DNA of 64,000 bases from Actinomadura hallensis (GTDB lineage: Bacteria > Actinomycetota > Actinomycetes > Streptosporangiales > Streptosporangiaceae): positions 1,798,001 through 1,862,000 of the forward strand of contig NZ_VFPO01000001.1 in assembly GCF_006716765.1 (NCBI RefSeq), in the 5' to 3' direction. Positions 2,615-27,486 of this stretch are shown in pieces (the stretch's first letter is position 1; every line of letters starts with the position of its first letter). The notes below the pieces were generated by a model. It saw only the letters and a list, made by a program, of their open reading frames with translations. It was not told the DNA's origin and did no database searches. A program made the translations under genes and the position numbers.

Positions 2615-5247
<2,633 letters not shown>

Positions 5248-5251
<4 letters not shown>

Positions 5252-5676
5252 ACCGGGGCGGTCAGGTCCCGCGCCGGGATGCGGCGCCCGTTGACGAGTT
5301 CGGGCCTGAGGCAGATGTAGCGGTCGCGCTCGCCGGGCGCCCAGGTCCGCAGGGGGAGCCGGTCGAGGCCCCGCACCTCCTCCGCGGCGGTGACGTGGCG
5401 GGCCGGGCCGACGGCGACGACCGACCAGCCGCTCTGCGCGTCGGCGTCGATCTCGTCGATCTCGAACGCGACGATGGTCCCGGTGGCGGCGGTGGCCAGC
5501 CGGGAGGCGCTCGACGTCTTGATCACGATGTCCGTGCCGTCGAACACGAAGTTGACCGGCTGGACGGCCGGGAGCGCCTGGTGGGTGAACACGATCCGGC
5601 CGATCGGGACGCGGGAGAGCAGCCTCAGGCACTCGTCCCGGTCGAGGATCTCCAGACCGCTGTGGTCGTGGTCCAT
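5248..5676 (-). CDS. Pyridoxamine 5'-phosphate oxidase (PPOX)-fold family protein
   Basis: The 142-residue product begins with LDRDECLRLLSRVPIGRIVFT and continues with the split-barrel pattern of PPOX-fold proteins (PAVQPVNFVFDGTDIVIKT, then GTIVAFEIDEIDADAQSGWSVVAVGPARHV). Members bind FMN or F420 and often act in redox chemistry; a true PdxH role is unlikely because that enzyme is longer. ATG 5676 is preceded by GAGAAGG with 8 nt spacing. It is the first gene of a two-gene operon with the P-type ATPase (4-bp ATGA overlap). A perfect DosR-like inverted repeat ends 36 bp upstream of the start. Confidence 0.85.
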
Positions 5677-5711
5677 GTCCACAGCCTTCTCATTCGGGTG
5701 ACGAACCGGCA

Positions 5712-5725
5712 GGGACCTTGGTCCC
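5712..5725. promoter_or_regulatory. DosR/DevR-box-like operator upstream of the PPOX-ATPase operon
   Basis: GGGACCTTGGTCCC is an inverted repeat of two 6-bp arms around TT. The same 14-mer, in the opposite orientation, lies in the devR-devS intergenic region. The DosR consensus is TTSGGGACTWWAGTCCCSAA; the two changed bases are compensatory and keep the symmetry. It is 36 bp upstream of the PPOX start codon. Confidence 0.72.
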
Positions 5726-5777
5726 GGCGAACGGCCCTCCGGGGCGGGTCCCCGTCCGCGCGCCGGGCGGCGGGGGA

Positions 5778-8320
<2,543 letters not shown>

Positions 8321-22419: not shown

Positions 22420-22608
22420 TCAGCGGGCCGGGGCGGCGGACTGGACGGCCGTGCGCAGGGCCGCGCGGGTCAGCAGGAGGATGGGGCCGTCCGGGTTCTT
22501 GCTGTCTCGCACCGCCACCGCACCGGACACCCCAGCCAACTCGACGCACTCACCGCCGTTGCTCAGGCTTCGGCGGGCCTTACGCCACTCGGCGTTCCTC
22601 AAGTCCAT
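22420..22608 (-). CDS. DUF397 domain protein
   Basis: The 62-residue product is a typical DUF397 protein: AEWRKARRSLSNGGECVELA, then VAVRDSKNPDGPILLLTRAA. Such small proteins pair with XRE regulators (as in the whiJ/bldB-type loci of Streptomyces) and probably modulate them. Its start overlaps the end of the XRE gene by 10 bp, so the two are translationally coupled. Confidence 0.88.
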   Translation of the reverse strand: MDLRNAEWRKARRSLSNGGECVELAGVSGAVAVRDSKNPDGPILLLTRAALRTAVQSAAPAR

Positions 22609-23399
22609 CGTTCTTCGGCCACCTTCCTGATGAAGTCTCGCGACATGTCCCCGGGAAGCGCTCTGTTCCGGATATCAGCCAGGACACGTGAGACCTCGGC
22701 AAGGTCCGCGGGGTCATCTGTCGTGAGCCCTCGTATAGCGGTCTCTATGTACGCTATGCGGCTCGTATCGGCCATCGTAGCCAACACGAAGCTGCTTCCG
22801 TTTCCGGCGTGTTCGCCGCTTCCGAGGACGACCTGGACCGTCACGTTGGGACGCTCGCTGAGGGCGATCAGGTGCTCAAGCTGCTCCCTCATCACCTCGG
22901 GGCTGCCGACGGACCGGTGGAGTGCTTGCTCGTCAACCAGGAAGGTCACGATCGGAGCGTTCTCCTTGTCGAGGATCTTCTGCCGTTCCAGCCGCGCCGC
23001 TACAGCCTCTTCGTTGCCCTTGAGGAGCGCCTTGGCGTATGCCGGGGTCTGGGCAAGACCAGCTATCACGCAGAGCTGGTAGCACGTGAGTTCGATCGCG
23101 TCGCCTTCGATCTGCGGCCAGTCGAACCAGATCGGGACGGGATGCCCGTCCTTGTTCAAGTCCTCCCAGAGGCTGATCAGCGCGCTCCCGGCTTCCAGGT
23201 AGTCGTCCACGATTTCCGCGAACGAGCGACTTGCGCGCCTCTTCCCCGCCTCAATCCGGCTTACCTGTGCGCCGCTCAGGTTCGTCAGGTGAGCGATGGT
23301 CTCCTGCTTGACCCCCTTGCCCTCGCGCATCCGGCGCAACTGACGGCCGAATGCGACGAGGGCGGGCGACTCCTGGGGCCGCTGACGACGTGGAGGCAT
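22599..23399 (-). CDS. XRE-family helix-turn-helix regulator with DUF5753
   Basis: The 266-residue product has an N-terminal HTH (about 18-75) with VKQETIAHLTNLSGAQVSRIE and a C-terminal DUF5753 region (about 90-260) with TPAYAKALLKG, RLERQKIL and ERPNVTVQVVLG. This is the WhiJ-like class, acting with a DUF397 partner. ATG 23399 has GAGAGGG about 8 nt upstream; longer in-frame starts lack a ribosome site. The divergent gene at 23537 encodes an RsbW-type ATPase, completing the usual three-gene arrangement. Confidence 0.9.
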   Translation of the reverse strand: MPPRRQRPQESPALVAFGRQLRRMREGKGVKQETIAHLTNLSGAQVSRIEAGKRRASRSFAEIVDDYLEAGSALISLWEDLNKDGHPVPIWFDWPQIEGDAIELTCYQLCVIAGLAQTPAYAKALLKGNEEAVAARLERQKILDKENAPIVTFLVDEQALHRSVGSPEVMREQLEHLIALSERPNVTVQVVLGSGEHAGNGSSFVLATMADTSRIAYIETAIRGLTTDDPADLAEVSRVLADIRNRALPGDMSRDFIRKVAEERWT

Positions 23400-23536
23400 G
23401 GCTCTTACCCTCTCTGTGGCACTTACCAGCCAGATTGCTCTATTGCCAGCGCTCGCCAAGCTAATTAGGCAAGCCAATCTTAGCCCGGTTAGTGGCTCAA
23501 TGTGTGGTGAAGAGCACGCACAGTGAGGAGAGAACC

Positions 23537-23938
23537 GTGGGCGGTGCGGCCGAGAACGAGATGGTGGTGAAGCAGGACCTCAGGGTCGTCTCGGAGGTCC
23601 GGAGATTTGTCCGGCTCATATCGGGTCAGTGGGACATGGACGACTTCGTGCCGTGTCTGGTGGCCAGCGAACTCGTGACCAATGCGCTGCGGCACGCCTC
23701 CGAGAAAGACGGCGATGTCATCCTGCGCCTGGGCCGGACCGAGGACGGGGCGCTGTGGATGGAGGTCCAGGACGCCAGTTACGAGCTGCCGCACCTTCGC
23801 GAGGCCGACGTCATCAGCGAGGTCGGGCGGGGCCTGTTCCTGGTGGACCAGTACTGCCGCTGCTGGGGTGTGCGCGCCCTGGCCGGCAACGCGGGCAAAG
23901 TCGTCTACGCCGTCATCGACGCCGCCTATCCCTCATGA
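23537..23938 (+). CDS. ATP-binding protein, RsbW/SpoIIAB-like (HATPase_c)
   Basis: The 133-residue product is a lone HATPase_c domain: LVASELVTNALRHA (N-box, about 38-51), MEVQDASYELPH (G1-like), GRGLFLVDQYCRCWGV (G2). Such proteins are anti-sigma or regulatory kinases. GTG 23537 follows GAGGAGAG; the ATG-like start 15 codons upstream lacks a ribosome site. It is divergent from the XRE-DUF397 pair, a common actinomycete trio with developmental or antibiotic roles in Streptomyces (family knowledge). Confidence 0.85.
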   Translation: MGGAAENEMVVKQDLRVVSEVRRFVRLISGQWDMDDFVPCLVASELVTNALRHASEKDGDVILRLGRTEDGALWMEVQDASYELPHLREADVISEVGRGLFLVDQYCRCWGVRALAGNAGKVVYAVIDAAYPS

Positions 23939-24249: not shown

Positions 24250-24577
24250 GAGTATGAGGCGCTGCCCGAAGCCCTCCCGATCCGTGTGAGTCTCATCTAC
24301 GGAGAGCTCGCTGAGGGGCCCCGGCTCCGCCCGGTCCAGCATCGCGCGGCTTTTAACGACTCGATCCAGGACGCCGCTCCGATGCCTGGCACGTCGAAGT
24401 GAACGTGGACGTCCTCCCGGATGACGACGAGGTGGAGCGGGCCGCCCATCGTCGTGTACTCCGCCGGGCACGACGTCTACGAAGACGACCCATTCCGGCC
24501 GACTTGGCCGCGCTCGTCGTCGAGGTGCCCCCACGACCACGCCTTGCGAATGCCCGCCCACAGCCAACGGCCACGGC
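24250..24577 (+). pseudogene. Frameshifted Uma2-family endonuclease remnant
   Basis: Pieces of a Uma2-like protein appear in order but in different frames: EYEALPEALPIRVSLIYGEL then PVQHRAAFNDSIQ (from 24250), VEVNVDVLPDDDEVERA (about 24397), PPIVVYSAGHDVYEDD (about 24441), and LAALVVEVP (about 24507). Uma2 proteins (PD-(D/E)XK fold) show EYEALPE...VELIYGE, a HQRA helix, PDIVVYDA and LVVEVVSP in that order. At least two frameshifts make this a pseudogene. It ends at the stop of the convergent HTH-deformylase gene. Confidence 0.6.
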
Positions 24578-26071
24578 TCAGCGGTAGGTCCAGGCTCGAC
24601 CGGTACCTCGGTAGTCCTCGACGGGGATCGGGTGGACGCCCTCACCCATCCGGTCGGTGTAGAGCCGTCCATACAGGTGGTCGATCTCGTGCCCGGCCAG
24701 ACGCGCGAGCGCGGCGTTCAGGACGGCCACCACCTGCCGCCCGTCCAGCCGAGTGTGGGCGACTTCCAACCTGAGCGGACGGGGTACAAGGCCGCGGACG
24801 TCGAAGAAGCTCAGGCAGCCCTCATACTGCTCGTCGGTTTCGGCTGATGCGCTGATCACACGGGGGTTGAGCAGCACGAGCGGTTCGGCGTCCGGGTCGG
24901 GCGGCGCGATGACGGCGGCGGCGCGGCCGATCCCGATCTGCGGGGCCGCCAAGCCCATACCCTTGCCGAACACGTGATGTTCGCGGACTCGCTGCATCGC
25001 GGCGAACAACTGGTCGACGACGTCGTCGGCCTCACCGGCCTCGGCGGGCAGATCGAACGGGCGTGCGGTGGCGGCCAGGATCGGTTCGCCGCGCTGGACG
25101 ATGCCGGCGGCCGTCATCCGGTCGCTGGCCGTGCGCAATCGGGGACGGTGCTGCTCAATGTCGTCATCGCGGCTCCGGAACCGCCATTCCAGCCGGTAGC
25201 GGGCGCCCATCGGCGGATCCTGGGTGGCCCAGGAGAACACCAGCCGATCCCCGTCCTCGCTGCGGGTGATGGGAGTGCGCAGTGGGACGGCCTCTGCGGT
25301 GGTGGAGGTCTCGGTGCCCCACACCACCGGGTCCAGTCCGGCAGGGAACACCAGCTCGACCGACAGGCGCCGGGTAGGCAGGCGGACCGCGCGTTGGAAC
25401 CACGGGCCCCACCGCCCGTCGTCGACCTGGTAGCCGTACTCGATGGTCGAGTGCTGACCGGGGTAGAGGGGGAATCGTCCGCGGTCGTTCTCCAGGCACA
25501 GCCATGCCTCTTTGAAGGAGTCGCGGTCCTGTTTGGGGCGCCAGCTCATGGGCTCTCCGTCGCAGGACGCGGTCAGCGCGAGTTCGTCCCAGGTGAGCGG
25601 CCGGGCCCGGTACAGCGCGTTGGACCGGTCGGGTCGGCCGGGGTGGCGGTCGACGCTGATGCGAATCAGGTAGCGGGTGACCGGTTCAGCGCCGCCGTTG
25701 AACAGACGGCGCCGCTGCATCGGCCGGTATACCGTCCCGTCGTACTCCAGCCGGGCATGGTCCTCCTCCACCACGAGGCCGTCGGCGTCGCTCGCACCGG
25801 CGCCGGCAGCTCGGAGCGGCCCGTCGCTCCGCCACGCCTGCCACAGTGCGCCACCGGCACTGAGCACGCTGTCGGCCTTCCGGGCGAAGTCCTCGCTGGC
25901 CGGGTGACGTCCCGCCTCCACATGGCTGACGTACGAGGGGTCGAAGCCCATCGCGGCGGCCAGCTTCTTCTTCGACATCGCCCGCTGTTCGCGCCACCGA
26001 GTCAAGGCCGCGCCAAAGGCGGCTCTTCGGGGGGACGGAGGCTCCGGCCTGTCGGCGGGCTGCTGGGCCAT
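24578..26071 (-). CDS. XRE helix-turn-helix / peptide deformylase fusion protein
   Basis: The 497-residue product joins three parts. Residues 14-75 are an XRE HTH (KKKLAAAMGFDPSYVSHVEAG). Residues about 105-300 are a beta-rich middle domain (RRLFNGGAEPVTRYLIRI, WLCLENDRGRFPLYPGQ, RAVRLPTRRLSVEL). Residues about 323-480 are a complete peptide deformylase: motif 1 GMGLAAPQIG (371-380), motif 2 EGCLS (417-421, metal ligand Cys419) and motif 3 HEIDH (461-465). All catalytic residues are present, so N-formyl-Met removal is possible, but DNA binding on the same chain suggests a sensor or a dedicated processing role (inference). ATG 26071 follows GGAGAGGA. It is divergent from a 34-residue peptide gene and a PIMT-like methyltransferase. 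Confidence 0.87.
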   Translation of the reverse strand: MAQQPADRPEPPSPRRAAFGAALTRWREQRAMSKKKLAAAMGFDPSYVSHVEAGRHPASEDFARKADSVLSAGGALWQAWRSDGPLRAAGAGASDADGLVVEEDHARLEYDGTVYRPMQRRRLFNGGAEPVTRYLIRISVDRHPGRPDRSNALYRARPLTWDELALTASCDGEPMSWRPKQDRDSFKEAWLCLENDRGRFPLYPGQHSTIEYGYQVDDGRWGPWFQRAVRLPTRRLSVELVFPAGLDPVVWGTETSTTAEAVPLRTPITRSEDGDRLVFSWATQDPPMGARYRLEWRFRSRDDDIEQHRPRLRTASDRMTAAGIVQRGEPILAATARPFDLPAEAGEADDVVDQLFAAMQRVREHHVFGKGMGLAAPQIGIGRAAAVIAPPDPDAEPLVLLNPRVISASAETDEQYEGCLSFFDVRGLVPRPLRLEVAHTRLDGRQVVAVLNAALARLAGHEIDHLYGRLYTDRMGEGVHPIPVEDYRGTGRAWTYR

Positions 26072-26199
26072 GGCCCGATCCTCTCCATTCCGGGATGAGG
26101 GTGTGAATGAATCGTGAATGAGGTTCCGTCAGCGTGGCGTCACCGACTGTATCGGGGGTCTCCTCGTCTGCGAGGACGACTTCGAGGAGGTGCAGCACC

Positions 26200-26304
26200 A
26201 TGGGTAAGCACGAGGACCCCGCCGAAAAGAACGGCCACAAACCGGACAAGCCCATTCCGCCGCCGAACAAGGACGACAAGGGCGACGGTAAACGGGGGAA
26301 GTGA
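26200..26304 (+). CDS. Small charged Lys/Asp/Pro-rich peptide (34 aa)
   Basis: ATG 26200 is preceded by a textbook GAGGAGG at 9 nt. The 34-residue product begins MGKHEDPAEKNGHK and has KPIPPPNKDD near the middle and a Lys/Gly/Asp end. It has no hydrophobic segment, Cys, Ser or Thr, so it is not a lanthipeptide core. It lies 7 bp before the PIMT-like gene and is divergent from the HTH-deformylase fusion. It could be a substrate peptide for the methyltransferase (Asp/Asn content) or simply a small conserved protein. I do not recognise it. Confidence 0.62.
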   Translation: MGKHEDPAEKNGHKPDKPIPPPNKDDKGDGKRGK

Positions 26305-26311
26305 TCGGCCG

Positions 26312-27424
26312 ATGGGAGACGTCATGCAGCGCGTCGAGGCGCTGATCGAGCGGCTGGCCGCCGCCGGGTGGCTGACGCAGGACCGCGTCCGGGCGGCGCT
26401 GCATGACGTCCCCCGGCACGTGTTCGCGCCGCCGGTGGCTTGGACCGGAGACAGCGACCGAGTGAGCAAGGAGGCCGATCCCGAAGGCTGGCTCGATCTG
26501 GTCTACGGCGACGACGCGATCATCACCCAGCTCGACGACGGCGCGACCGATCTCACGACCGGTGCGGGCCGCTTCACCTCGTCGTTGTCCGCGTCGAGCA
26601 CCGTGGTGTCCCTCCTGGAGTTGCTGGACGTCGAGCCGGGGCATCGGGTGCTGGACGTCGGCACCGGTACCGGTTGGACGGCCGCGCTGCTGTCGCGCCT
26701 GGTCGGCTCGGCGAACGTCACCAGCGTGGAGGTCGATCCGGCGGTGTCGGCGCGGGCCGCCGCCAACCTCGAGCGGGCCGGCGTTGCGCCTCGGCTCATC
26801 GTGGGGGACGGCGCTCACGGTTGGGCACTGGGAGCACCCTACGACCGGGTGCACGCCACCTGCGCGGTAGCCCGCGTGCCGTATGCGTGGGTGGAGCAGA
26901 CCCGCCCCGGTGGGGTGATCGTGACGCCCTACGCCCCAGGGTTCGGGTCCAGCCATGAACTGCGGCTCGTGGTGATGCCGGACGGCACCGCCGTGGGCCG
27001 GTTCACCGGCTACGCCTCGTACATGATGATGCGGACGCAGCGCCGCCCCGAATGGGGCGCCCCTGACCGGCACGGGGACCGGTCCACGACCGACATCGAC
27101 CCCCGGACCATCGGCTACGCCCCGGCGGGCGCCGACCTGGCGATGGGGGCGGCGCTACCGGGTGTGTGCGCCAGGGGCGCACACGACGGCGCCGCCTACA
27201 CGCTGCGCCTGTGGAGCGCGGACGCCTGGGCTGAAGCTCACTACCGGCCCGACCGCGACTCCTTCGACGTCGAACAGGGCGGAGACCGGCGCCTGTGGGA
27301 TCTGGCGGTGTCGGCCTACTTCGACTGGATCGCCCACCGCAGTCCTGGCCGCGACCGCTTCGGGCTGACCGTGACACCCGCCGGCGACCACGTCTGGCTG
27401 GACCATCCCGGCGACATCATCTGA
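26312..27424 (+). CDS. PIMT-like protein methyltransferase (TgmC/FxLD-system type)
   Basis: The 370-residue product has an N-terminal PIMT-like region (RVRAALHDVPRHVFAPP), motif I VLDVGTGTGWTAALLSRL (SAM binding), EVDPAVSARAAANL, and ATCAVARVPYAWVEQTRPGG, followed by a 170-residue C-terminal extension absent in housekeeping PIMT. I recall this layout from methyltransferases of actinobacterial RiPP systems (ATP-grasp 'TgmC' or FxLD types). No ATP-grasp or lanthipeptide synthetase is near, so the system is incomplete or different. ATG 26312 and ATG 26324 are both possible; the second has GGGAG at 6 nt. Confidence 0.82.
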   Translation: MGDVMQRVEALIERLAAAGWLTQDRVRAALHDVPRHVFAPPVAWTGDSDRVSKEADPEGWLDLVYGDDAIITQLDDGATDLTTGAGRFTSSLSASSTVVSLLELLDVEPGHRVLDVGTGTGWTAALLSRLVGSANVTSVEVDPAVSARAAANLERAGVAPRLIVGDGAHGWALGAPYDRVHATCAVARVPYAWVEQTRPGGVIVTPYAPGFGSSHELRLVVMPDGTAVGRFTGYASYMMMRTQRRPEWGAPDRHGDRSTTDIDPRTIGYAPAGADLAMGAALPGVCARGAHDGAAYTLRLWSADAWAEAHYRPDRDSFDVEQGGDRRLWDLAVSAYFDWIAHRSPGRDRFGLTVTPAGDHVWLDHPGDII

Positions 27425-27486
27425 CCCTGGCAGCCCTCCGCGCGGCTGGTGGAGCAACCGGTCCCCGGCTGTTCAGTTCGGGGACT

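Follow-up and report, generated by a model that had tools for sequence, protein, structure and literature searches.

A gene for a single-frame fusion protein and an operon of two genes, encoding a 34-residue peptide (MGKHEDPAEKNGHKPDKPIPPPNKDDKGDGKRGK) and a methyltransferase, diverge from a shared intergenic region in the order fusion, intergenic region, peptide, methyltransferase (Table 1). The window analyzed here, to which all coordinates refer, is the whole 64,000-nucleotide stretch of Actinomadura hallensis DNA. All three genes are real, with the coordinates given in a preliminary description of this DNA. The peptide frame is open as far as GTG 26134, and ATG 26200 was chosen as the start because of the GAGGAGG ahead of it and the same start in relatives. 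The methyltransferase ATG lies seven bases past the peptide stop codon.

Table 1. Genes, domains and regulatory features of the divergent locus
Feature	Coordinates	Strand	Basis or remark
HTH / M1-aminopeptidase-N-like / peptide deformylase fusion	24578..26071	-	Single open frame, 497 aa; proposed pathway-specific regulator
HTH_31 (XRE-type) DNA-binding domain, residues 18-82	25826..26020	-	Profile match
Beta-rich middle domain, residues 99-298	25178..25777	-	Predicted M1-aminopeptidase N-domain-like fold
Peptide deformylase domain, residues 321-476	24644..25111	-	Three motifs intact
Operator-like core TCATTCACGATTCATTCA	26104..26121	-	32 bp ahead of fusion start codon
Extended operator-like element	26096..26142	.	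Conserved columns in 16 upstream regions
Ribosome-binding site of peptide, GAGGAGG	26184..26190	+	Sequence
Likely imiditide / type I pamtide precursor, 34 residues	26200..26304	+	Predicted modified residue Asp25
PIMT-type aspartyl methyltransferase with C-terminal extension, 370 aa	26312..27424	+	Profile matches, locus comparison

The peptide-methyltransferase pair

The methyltransferase matches PCMT at residues 90-209 (E = 2.5e-33) and TIGR04188 over residues 11-361 (E = 3.9e-90; 302.8 bits, below the cut-off of 380). With 370 aa and a C-terminal extension, it has the architecture by which the available text of PMC10787088 defines imiditides, or type I pamtides, namely a PIMT homolog of >300 aa with a C-terminal extension. 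The precursor, too, has the features of this class, being short, immediately upstream, rich in Gly, Pro, Asp and Lys, and devoid of the four-Cys motif. A clean precursor was found directly upstream in 23 of 30 methyltransferase loci, the window included, which agrees with the earlier view of a RiPP-type PIMT-like enzyme with an extension. The other seven loci were left out of the precursor alignment; in this single MAFFT alignment of 23 sequences, one Asp column is invariant and corresponds to D25 here. One 93% relative of the window methyltransferase (G110) has no recognizable precursor.

The motif WXXXGXP is present in the last 40 residues in 24 of the 30 loci, and the window enzyme carries WIAHRSP, with Arg in place of Gly; because of this departure, we consider the pair, on its sequence features, a likely rather than a proven further member of the published class (PMC10787088, PMC13001092). 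The available text of the review (PMC13001092) describes the motif as conserved in the C-terminal domain and does not state it as a requirement. A role of the locus in anti-phage defense was rejected: PADLOC returned only partial methyltransferase-domain matches for the methyltransferase (mad2, E = 5.1e-17; MTase_II) and only generic HTH or control-protein matches for the fusion, and none of the phage records matched the fusion at E <= 1e-8.

Domain architecture of the fusion protein

The fusion combines a complete deformylase with an XRE-type HTH and a beta-rich domain, as had been proposed. HTH_31 (E = 2.3e-12; 47.5 bits, cut-off 27) and Pep_deformylase (PF01327; E = 1.1e-32; 113.2 bits, cut-off 22.8) both score above their Pfam cut-offs. 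The sequences GMGLAAPQIG, EGCLS and HEIDH correspond to the three deformylase motifs; in the alignment, these motifs and the metal ligands Cys, His and His are kept, and the predicted fold resembles solved deformylases with VIA Z-scores of 20-21. Three other deformylase matches are found in the same genome. Of 80 named loci, 69 retain all three motifs, and a pattern search found them degenerate or absent in five mobile-element copies (L211, L213, L215, L219 and L220), three of which adjoin integrase genes. The deformylase goes together with an HTH protein, either fused to it or split off as an overlapping gene; the L103 protein consists of the HTH and the middle domain, without a deformylase.

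The middle domain, between HTH_31 and Pep_deformylase, has no Pfam annotation: PF17852 alone was returned (E = 0.3), and DUF3857 (E = 0.083) for the relative L103, neither credible, and a sequence comparison with solved proteins gave nothing at E <= 1. Its structure model (pLDDT 94.4) is predicted to fold like the N-terminal domain of M1 aminopeptidases, which it matches along most of its length. Among the matches listed, VIA Z-scores range from 11.8 to 15.2, with 154-176 of 209 residues aligned; they include 7oci chain A (Z-score = 15.2; rmsd 2.9; 168 residues aligned), 3kd4 (Z-score = 13.7) and LTA4 hydrolase (Z-score = 12.6), the last also matched by Foldseek (E = 1.4e-7; TM 0.52). The combination of HTH, middle domain and deformylase is absent from the Foldseek lists, an absence that carries no weight.

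Distribution and gene neighborhoods

Relatives of the middle domain were identified in 344 stretches among 84,980 species genomes. The distribution is patchy, with any match in 29 of 250 family genomes. Fusion family members occur beside integrase genes and on 34 plasmid records, 15 of which were examined; many of these copies adjoin biosynthetic genes. The fusion is usually divergent from unrelated, mostly biosynthetic operons, and family scans of selected operon genes identified enzymes unrelated between loci. The nearest upstream gene within 500 bp was divergent in 63, parallel in 3 and not called in 14 of the 80 named loci, so that 63 of the 66 cases with a call are divergent, compared with 148 of 625 other genes; in these counts, fusion starts were extrapolated from alignment, so that some distances are negative, and the gene caller was crude (GC by codon position), missing Gfo/Idh in L148 and L151 (recovered by tblastn) and the methyltransferase and maturase start in L209. 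All 12 plasmid loci L106-L117 are divergent, and three further plasmid copies are truncated, among them L118, which is not divergent. One divergent plasmid operon encodes a hypothetical protein and MazF, and that of A. harenae (L209) represents another RiPP type, with an ATP-grasp peptide maturase and a PIMT-type methyltransferase.

Apart from the window, only two Actinomadura, A. latina and A. madurae, have the pair next to the fusion; both share the whole layout over about 2.8 kb at 92.4-92.6% DNA identity. In 19 of 20 stretches retrieved, several of which end at contig ends, the whole fusion or part of it was found and the pair was not, and a close homolog of the pair is missing from 78 of the 80 named loci, the exceptions being L145 and L147. 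A distant methyltransferase (37-39%) is encoded about 1.1 kb downstream of the fusion in L150 and 1.7 kb upstream of it in L209. Compared with Actinomadura sp. WMMA1423 and A. darangshiensis, DNA homology ends at 26189/26190, at the ribosome-binding site of the peptide; both retain the regulator and the intergenic region and have a different operon, which in A. darangshiensis consists of Gfo/Idh and DegT and faces a regulator with a 96% identical middle domain. On the co-occurrence data and these breakpoints, an obligate three-gene system is rejected; the fusion belongs to a separate mobile family. The co-occurrence put forward earlier as a check holds between the peptide and the methyltransferase and fails between the peptide and the fusion, and the view of an undescribed three-gene system is not sustained, the pair likely being of a published class (PMC10787088, PMC13001092) and the fusion mostly occurring without it.

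A conserved operator-like element

An operator-like motif, TCAYTCACGNTTCAYTCA, which was not part of the preliminary description, precedes the fusion gene with <=2 mismatches in 69 of the 80 named loci (49 exact) and is absent, as written, from the other 11. Of 31 upstream regions used for de novo motif discovery, 30 have a probable site. Thirteen of the named loci apparently coincide with earlier stretches, 12 of them being among these 31 sequences, and when the 13 are left out, the motif is present in 57 of 67 loci (<=2 mismatches). After a crude, ungapped redundancy filter, which left the close pairs of the window with L035 and of L049 with L050, it remained, with <=2 mismatches, in 16 of 27 regions and was absent from 11; it was found in none of 20 shuffles.

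The genome of the window has a single site (<=2 mismatches), the one between the fusion and the peptide. Across the 250 family genomes, 24 sites were found with <=1 mismatch, of which 13 lie just upstream of a fusion, one precedes a decayed remnant and 10 are away from any fusion, compared with 4 sites for a reversed control pattern. The motif tracks the recognition helix, being present (<=2 mismatches) in 64 of 67 loci with SH proteins and 5 of 14 with SK proteins, a count made on 96 of 133 loci with an HTH matching the pattern (81 after duplicate removal) and biased in favor of the association because the 37 excluded loci include several plasmid loci (L108-L111, L115-L117) with poor motif matches.

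In 16 upstream regions preselected for a good core match, the extended element reads TGA / TGA then TCA / TCA / TTCA / TCA / TCA, with several of these repeats 11 bp apart. From these sequence patterns, we infer that the fusion would bind a specific operator at 26096-26142. A search for a -10 box of the divergent operon gave no convincing hexamer, although two positions of the motif frame, -43 and -38, are invariant.

Interpretation

The probable reading, in our judgment, is a two-gene imiditide pathway placed under a mobile, autoregulatory transcription factor of HTH/M1-N/deformylase architecture that controls the divergent operon. The probable substrate of the methyltransferase is Asp25 of the peptide, and the methylated residue would close to an aspartimide (-18 Da), as the class does on the linear peptide, which may open to isoaspartate. 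The fusion would act as a one-component factor that binds the conserved element, activates or represses the divergent operon as well as its own gene, and retains the intergenic region when the operon is swapped; the divergent layout noted earlier holds, with the DNA-binding deformylase probably in control of the pair. Because the middle and deformylase folds both handle peptide N-termini, the signal is likely a peptide, plausibly N-formylated, and deformylation, if the domain is catalytic, would end or convert it. On this reading, the fusion would be a local autoregulatory factor that detects its signal through the peptide-handling domains; N-formyl peptides, as in the N-formyl-Met sensing suggested earlier, are a possible signal.

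That the deformylase instead deformylates or processes the 34-residue peptide, with the methyltransferase modifying it in an obligate three-gene maturation, would fit the adjacent, divergent genes of the three Actinomadura and the intact motifs; the occurrence of pair and fusion apart outside these three and the near-identical regulator facing Gfo/Idh and DegT in A. darangshiensis make it highly improbable, and because near-identical fusions face operons without the peptide, the modifying role suggested earlier for the deformylase is unlikely. Cluster-situated deformylases can confer immunity, as LydA does for lydiamycin (PMC12130866, available text), and many plasmid copies of the fusion adjoin biosynthetic genes, but the neighboring pathways are mutually unrelated among the operon genes scanned and the enzyme comes coupled to an HTH protein, so that a self-resistance deformylase shielding the producer from an inhibitor of the neighboring cluster is a very unlikely explanation.

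We consider it quite unlikely that the pair merely has an unrelated mobile gene, a selfish or mobile-element regulator, as a chance neighbor that exerts no control over it: the plasmid records, integrase neighbors and patchy occurrence would be expected of such a gene, but not the prevailing divergence, nor an element inside the shared intergenic region with homology ending at the ribosome-binding site of the operon. Also rather unlikely is a deformylase fold serving purely as a ligand-binding module, with catalysis dispensable and a non-formylated small molecule as the signal. The loss of motifs in some mobile-element copies and the lack of the domain in L103 point in this direction, but three motifs in 69 of 80 loci are more than expected for pure binding.

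Beyond the favored reading of an autoregulatory factor in front of an imiditide pathway, a broader proposal, on balance rather unlikely, is a previously undescribed family of N-formyl-peptide receptors. In such proteins, N-formyl-Met peptides, whether released by lysed neighbors or arising in the cell's own translation, would be bound jointly by the M1-N-like domain and an active deformylase. A dedicated operator would be switched in response and the signal removed by deformylation, and small antibiotic-like pathways would have such proteins as exchangeable front ends. N-formyl peptides are familiar as a signal mainly from animal immunity; should the deformylase domain act as a sensor, bacteria would respond to them at the level of transcription. 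Many small biosynthetic operons of actinobacteria, most of them unstudied, are marked by this regulator family and its motif, which could help to switch them on; a candidate regulator is thereby proposed for an imiditide pathway and for a graspetide-like one.

Comparison with known systems

Like the imiditides or type I pamtides (NmaA-NmaM, SpaA-SpaM), the pair consists of two genes, a short Gly/Pro/Asp/Lys-rich precursor with one invariant Asp and a basic C-terminus, followed by a PIMT homolog of >300 aa with a C-terminal extension. It differs in the length of the precursor (34 aa compared with about 45), the degenerate WXXXGXP and the dedicated candidate regulator in front; the main texts of PMC10787088 and PMC13001092 contain none of the terms deformylase, XRE, helix-turn-helix and regulator.

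The MmyB-like regulators, such as MltR, resemble the fusion in joining an XRE HTH to a sensor module, in being mostly actinomycete and in their link to specialized metabolism, but the MltR sensor has a PAS-like fold, whereas that of the fusion would comprise an M1-N-like domain and a complete metallo-hydrolase (PMC3406030, available text). The fusion shares the domain, the three motifs and the predicted fold with ordinary peptide deformylases (PF01327) and differs from them in being a predicted DNA-binding protein and in a conserved FFDVRG segment after EGCLS. We know of no regulator carrying a deformylase domain, and no paper among the literature matches listed described one or a regulator of imiditides. 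MocR/GabR and NrtR are one-component regulators with an enzyme-derived sensor, and the fusion resembles them in joining an HTH to an enzyme fold.

Fusion family and its distribution

The fusion (a 497-aa protein with HTH, beta-rich middle and peptide deformylase domains), the 34-residue peptide and the PIMT-type methyltransferase were all borne out by reading frames. Both the XRE-type HTH and the peptide deformylase scored above the Pfam cut-offs in a domain scan, and the genome contains three other deformylase matches.

The preliminary description had tied these genes into one system. The tie between peptide and methyltransferase held, with a clean precursor directly 5' of the methyltransferase in 23 of the 30 loci listed, the window included; the tie to the fusion did not, as 1 of 20 fetched stretches and 2 of the best 80 loci have the pair next to it (three species, with the window). 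The fusion is a distinct family. Of 250 family genomes, 29 have some fusion match; it is nearly full length in a single frame in 18 of them, interrupted by a stop in one case, and split into two pieces in one more. Plasmid records with a match numbered 34, of which 30 came from Streptomyces, 3 from Nocardia and 1 from Nonomuraea; phage records contained no fusion match. Among 84,980 species genomes, 344 stretches encode a relative of the middle domain, the best 80 of which were kept as named loci.

An alignment of 17 fusion proteins shows the deformylase motifs, and with them the EGCLSFFDVRG segment, to be near-invariant; 69 of the best 80 loci have all three motifs. A single fused protein is encoded in 31 of the 80, whereas in 45, by scripted assignment, the deformylase lies in a different frame. 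Of these 45, 39 (mostly from Streptomyces) encode it as a second gene with a four-base overlap with the HTH-middle gene, and L149 and L167 show an apparent frameshift or misreading. Searching by the third motif gave no deformylase match in three loci, and a contig end cuts one more. One protein consists of HTH and middle domain only. Five fusion copies (L211, L213, L215, L219 and L220) have degenerate or missing deformylase motifs; three of them adjoin integrase genes, and several carry a variant operator-like motif such as TCACTCACAGCTCACTCA.

Genomic placement and operator-like element

The fusion gene is placed like a regulator gene. Among the best 80 loci, 63 have a divergent gene as their nearest upstream neighbour within 500 bp and 3 a parallel one, with no such gene called in the remaining 14; for other genes of the same stretches, the divergent count is 148 of 625 (24%). 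All 12 plasmid loci L106-L117 are divergent (genes are split in L113, and L117 is shortened by a transposase gene); of three further truncated plasmid copies, one (L119) is divergent, another (L118) is not divergent, and the third (L120) is a deformylase remnant. The divergent operons mostly encode enzymes of specialised metabolism, yet are mutually unrelated (see table). The L209 methyltransferase scores above the TIGR04188 cut-off, and this operon is, judging from its genes, a graspetide-like RiPP cluster; by eye, the open frame preceding its maturase and methyltransferase resembles a graspetide precursor. Exceptions to biosynthetic neighbours are mobile-element settings, with an integrase beside L213, L215, L219 and, by reading of neighbourhoods, others, and a plasmid locus with hypothetical and MazF genes.

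Genes of the locus and operons divergent from fusion genes
Feature	Position	Strand	Content or occurrence
Fusion gene	24578-26071	minus	XRE-type HTH and complete peptide deformylase
Peptide gene	26200-26304	plus	34 codons
Methyltransferase gene	26312-27424	plus	
Divergent operon: imiditide pair			window
Divergent operon: glycosyltransferase-like genes, small kinase			39 of the best 80 loci
Divergent operon: QueD/QueE/FolE			three loci, two also with radical SAM and aminotransferase
Divergent operon: QueC/QueD/radical SAM			
Divergent operon: D-Ala-D-Ala ligase, PLP enzyme, M55 peptidase			
Divergent operon: Gfo/Idh, DegT			
Divergent operon: epimerase, DegT			
Divergent operon: radical SAM/SPASM, creatininase			
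Divergent operon: racemase, NRPS			
Divergent operon: methyltransferase, uracil-DNA glycosylase-like and AMP-binding genes			
Divergent operon: SAH-hydrolase-like, NUDIX			
L209 (Actinomadura harenae)	3971-6531		fusion divergent from ATP-grasp ribosomal peptide maturase (TIGR04187, E 2.3e-76) and PIMT-type methyltransferase

Motif discovery in 31 upstream regions yielded TCAcTCACGnTTCAcTCA; 30 of the regions have a probable site for it. Matches with up to two mismatches, located 14-35 bp ahead of the start codon (as chosen by script), occurred in 16 of 27 regions and in none of 20 dinucleotide shuffles; in the best 80 loci, 69 have such a match, 49 of them exact. The window's genome has one site at this threshold, 26104-26121, between fusion and peptide; 0.04 chance sites would be expected in the window at up to three mismatches. 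With at most one mismatch, the 250 genomes contain 24 sites (13 directly before a fusion, 1 before a decayed fusion and 10 elsewhere) and 4 sites for a reversed control pattern. Regions aligned on the motif show additional conserved triplets, TGA at -21 and -10 and TCA at 0, 4, 11, 15 and 23. Because several of these are spaced 11 bp apart, the element is likely a symmetrical multi-site operator. The motif accompanies 64 of 67 proteins whose recognition helix contains SH and 5 of 14 in which it contains SK, a count confounded by relatedness and omitted loci.

AnnnnA at 26159-26164 on the fusion strand corresponds to two bases, at -43 and -38 relative to the motif, that are invariant in 16 aligned upstream regions. 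An exact motif copy also lies just 5' of a 484-codon open frame, not a fusion relative, in L128 (G216). In a Streptomyces group (L087-L098) that shares the middle and deformylase domains but has a different N-terminal HTH-like region, the motif was not found at up to four mismatches in the stretches examined.

Exchange of operons among Actinomadura

DNA homology to the window spans 24573-27430 in A. latina (92.6%) and 24578-27408 in A. madurae (92.4%), but only 24578-26189 in A. darangshiensis (87.6%), 24578-26190 in Actinomadura sp. WMMA1423 (83.9%) and 24575-26164 in A. syzygii (78.0%). Since homology to A. darangshiensis and WMMA1423 breaks within the ribosome-binding site of the peptide gene (26184-26190), and both carry a Gfo/Idh-DegT operon at this place, the putative regulator and intergenic region are retained while the operon varies. 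In A. latina and A. madurae, the equivalent position holds DNA about 70% alike to the adjoining region 22420-23938, and A. darangshiensis has no such match; the exchanged island may therefore extend beyond the imiditide pair. This region encodes an XRE regulator bearing DUF5753 (E 6.4e-48), a protein matching DUF397 (E 2e-17) and a HATPase-like protein below its cut-off.

Probable imiditide pair

The peptide and methyltransferase very likely form an imiditide (type I pamtide) pair. Methyltransferase relatives are present in 151 of 250 family genomes (E ≤ 1e-40). Seven of the 30 listed loci were left out of the precursor alignment: L056, L058, L060 and L072 (no recognisable precursor), L062 (no Asp), L066 (truncated) and L069 (frame uncertain). 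Three residues are invariant across the 23 aligned precursors (a His close to the N-terminus, one Asp and one Gly), and 22 have a C-terminal Lys; their composition is 17.7% Gly, 14.2% Pro, 11.2% Asp and 18.3% Lys. Published accounts of the class describe a two-gene cluster, precursors of about 45 aa with 17.3% Gly, 16.8% Pro, 10.2% Asp and at least one conserved Asp, and a methyltransferase with a C-terminal domain (PMC10787088) that converts Asp through a methyl ester to aspartimide (PMC10787088, PMC13001092). By analogy, Asp25 is the predicted modified residue. The window's enzyme departs from the class motif, having WIAHRSP in place of WXXXGXP, which is found in 24 of the 30 listed loci.

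The L056 (G110) methyltransferase is 93% identical to that of the window, and in DNA comparison the two loci have in common just this gene, start to stop, and short repeats; no precursor was seen beside it. This pattern implies that the enzyme can move or persist alone. L056 also contains a truncated second copy of the methyltransferase start, with DUF397-region repeats on both sides. In L058, by eye, a second PIMT-like reading frame ends directly 5' of the methyltransferase, making a tandem pair instead of a precursor.

Middle-domain fold and comparison with known systems

Modeled alone (pLDDT 94.4), the middle domain has a predicted fold like that of the M1-aminopeptidase N-terminal domain (Z 12.6), an oligosaccharyltransferase chain that we take to be Ost1 (Z 15.2) and 3kd4, presumably a DUF3857-type protein (Z 13.7); Foldseek matched it to LTA4 hydrolase (E 1.4e-7, TM-score 0.52). 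The full-length model makes the domain order clear, but not the relative domain placement (pTM 0.49). Fold likeness alone does not demonstrate function. Because the M1-N-like fold and the deformylase both derive from proteins handling peptide N-termini, we prefer a peptide, possibly N-formylated, as the signal that the fusion would sense, with a non-catalytic small-molecule sensor as the second choice.

Among the matches listed from the open-licence literature, there was no deformylase-bearing one-component regulator. The imiditide pair is very likely a further member of an already known class; the proposed regulator is of a known kind as well, that of one-component regulators whose sensor derives from an enzyme, and with its deformylase it is a new variant.
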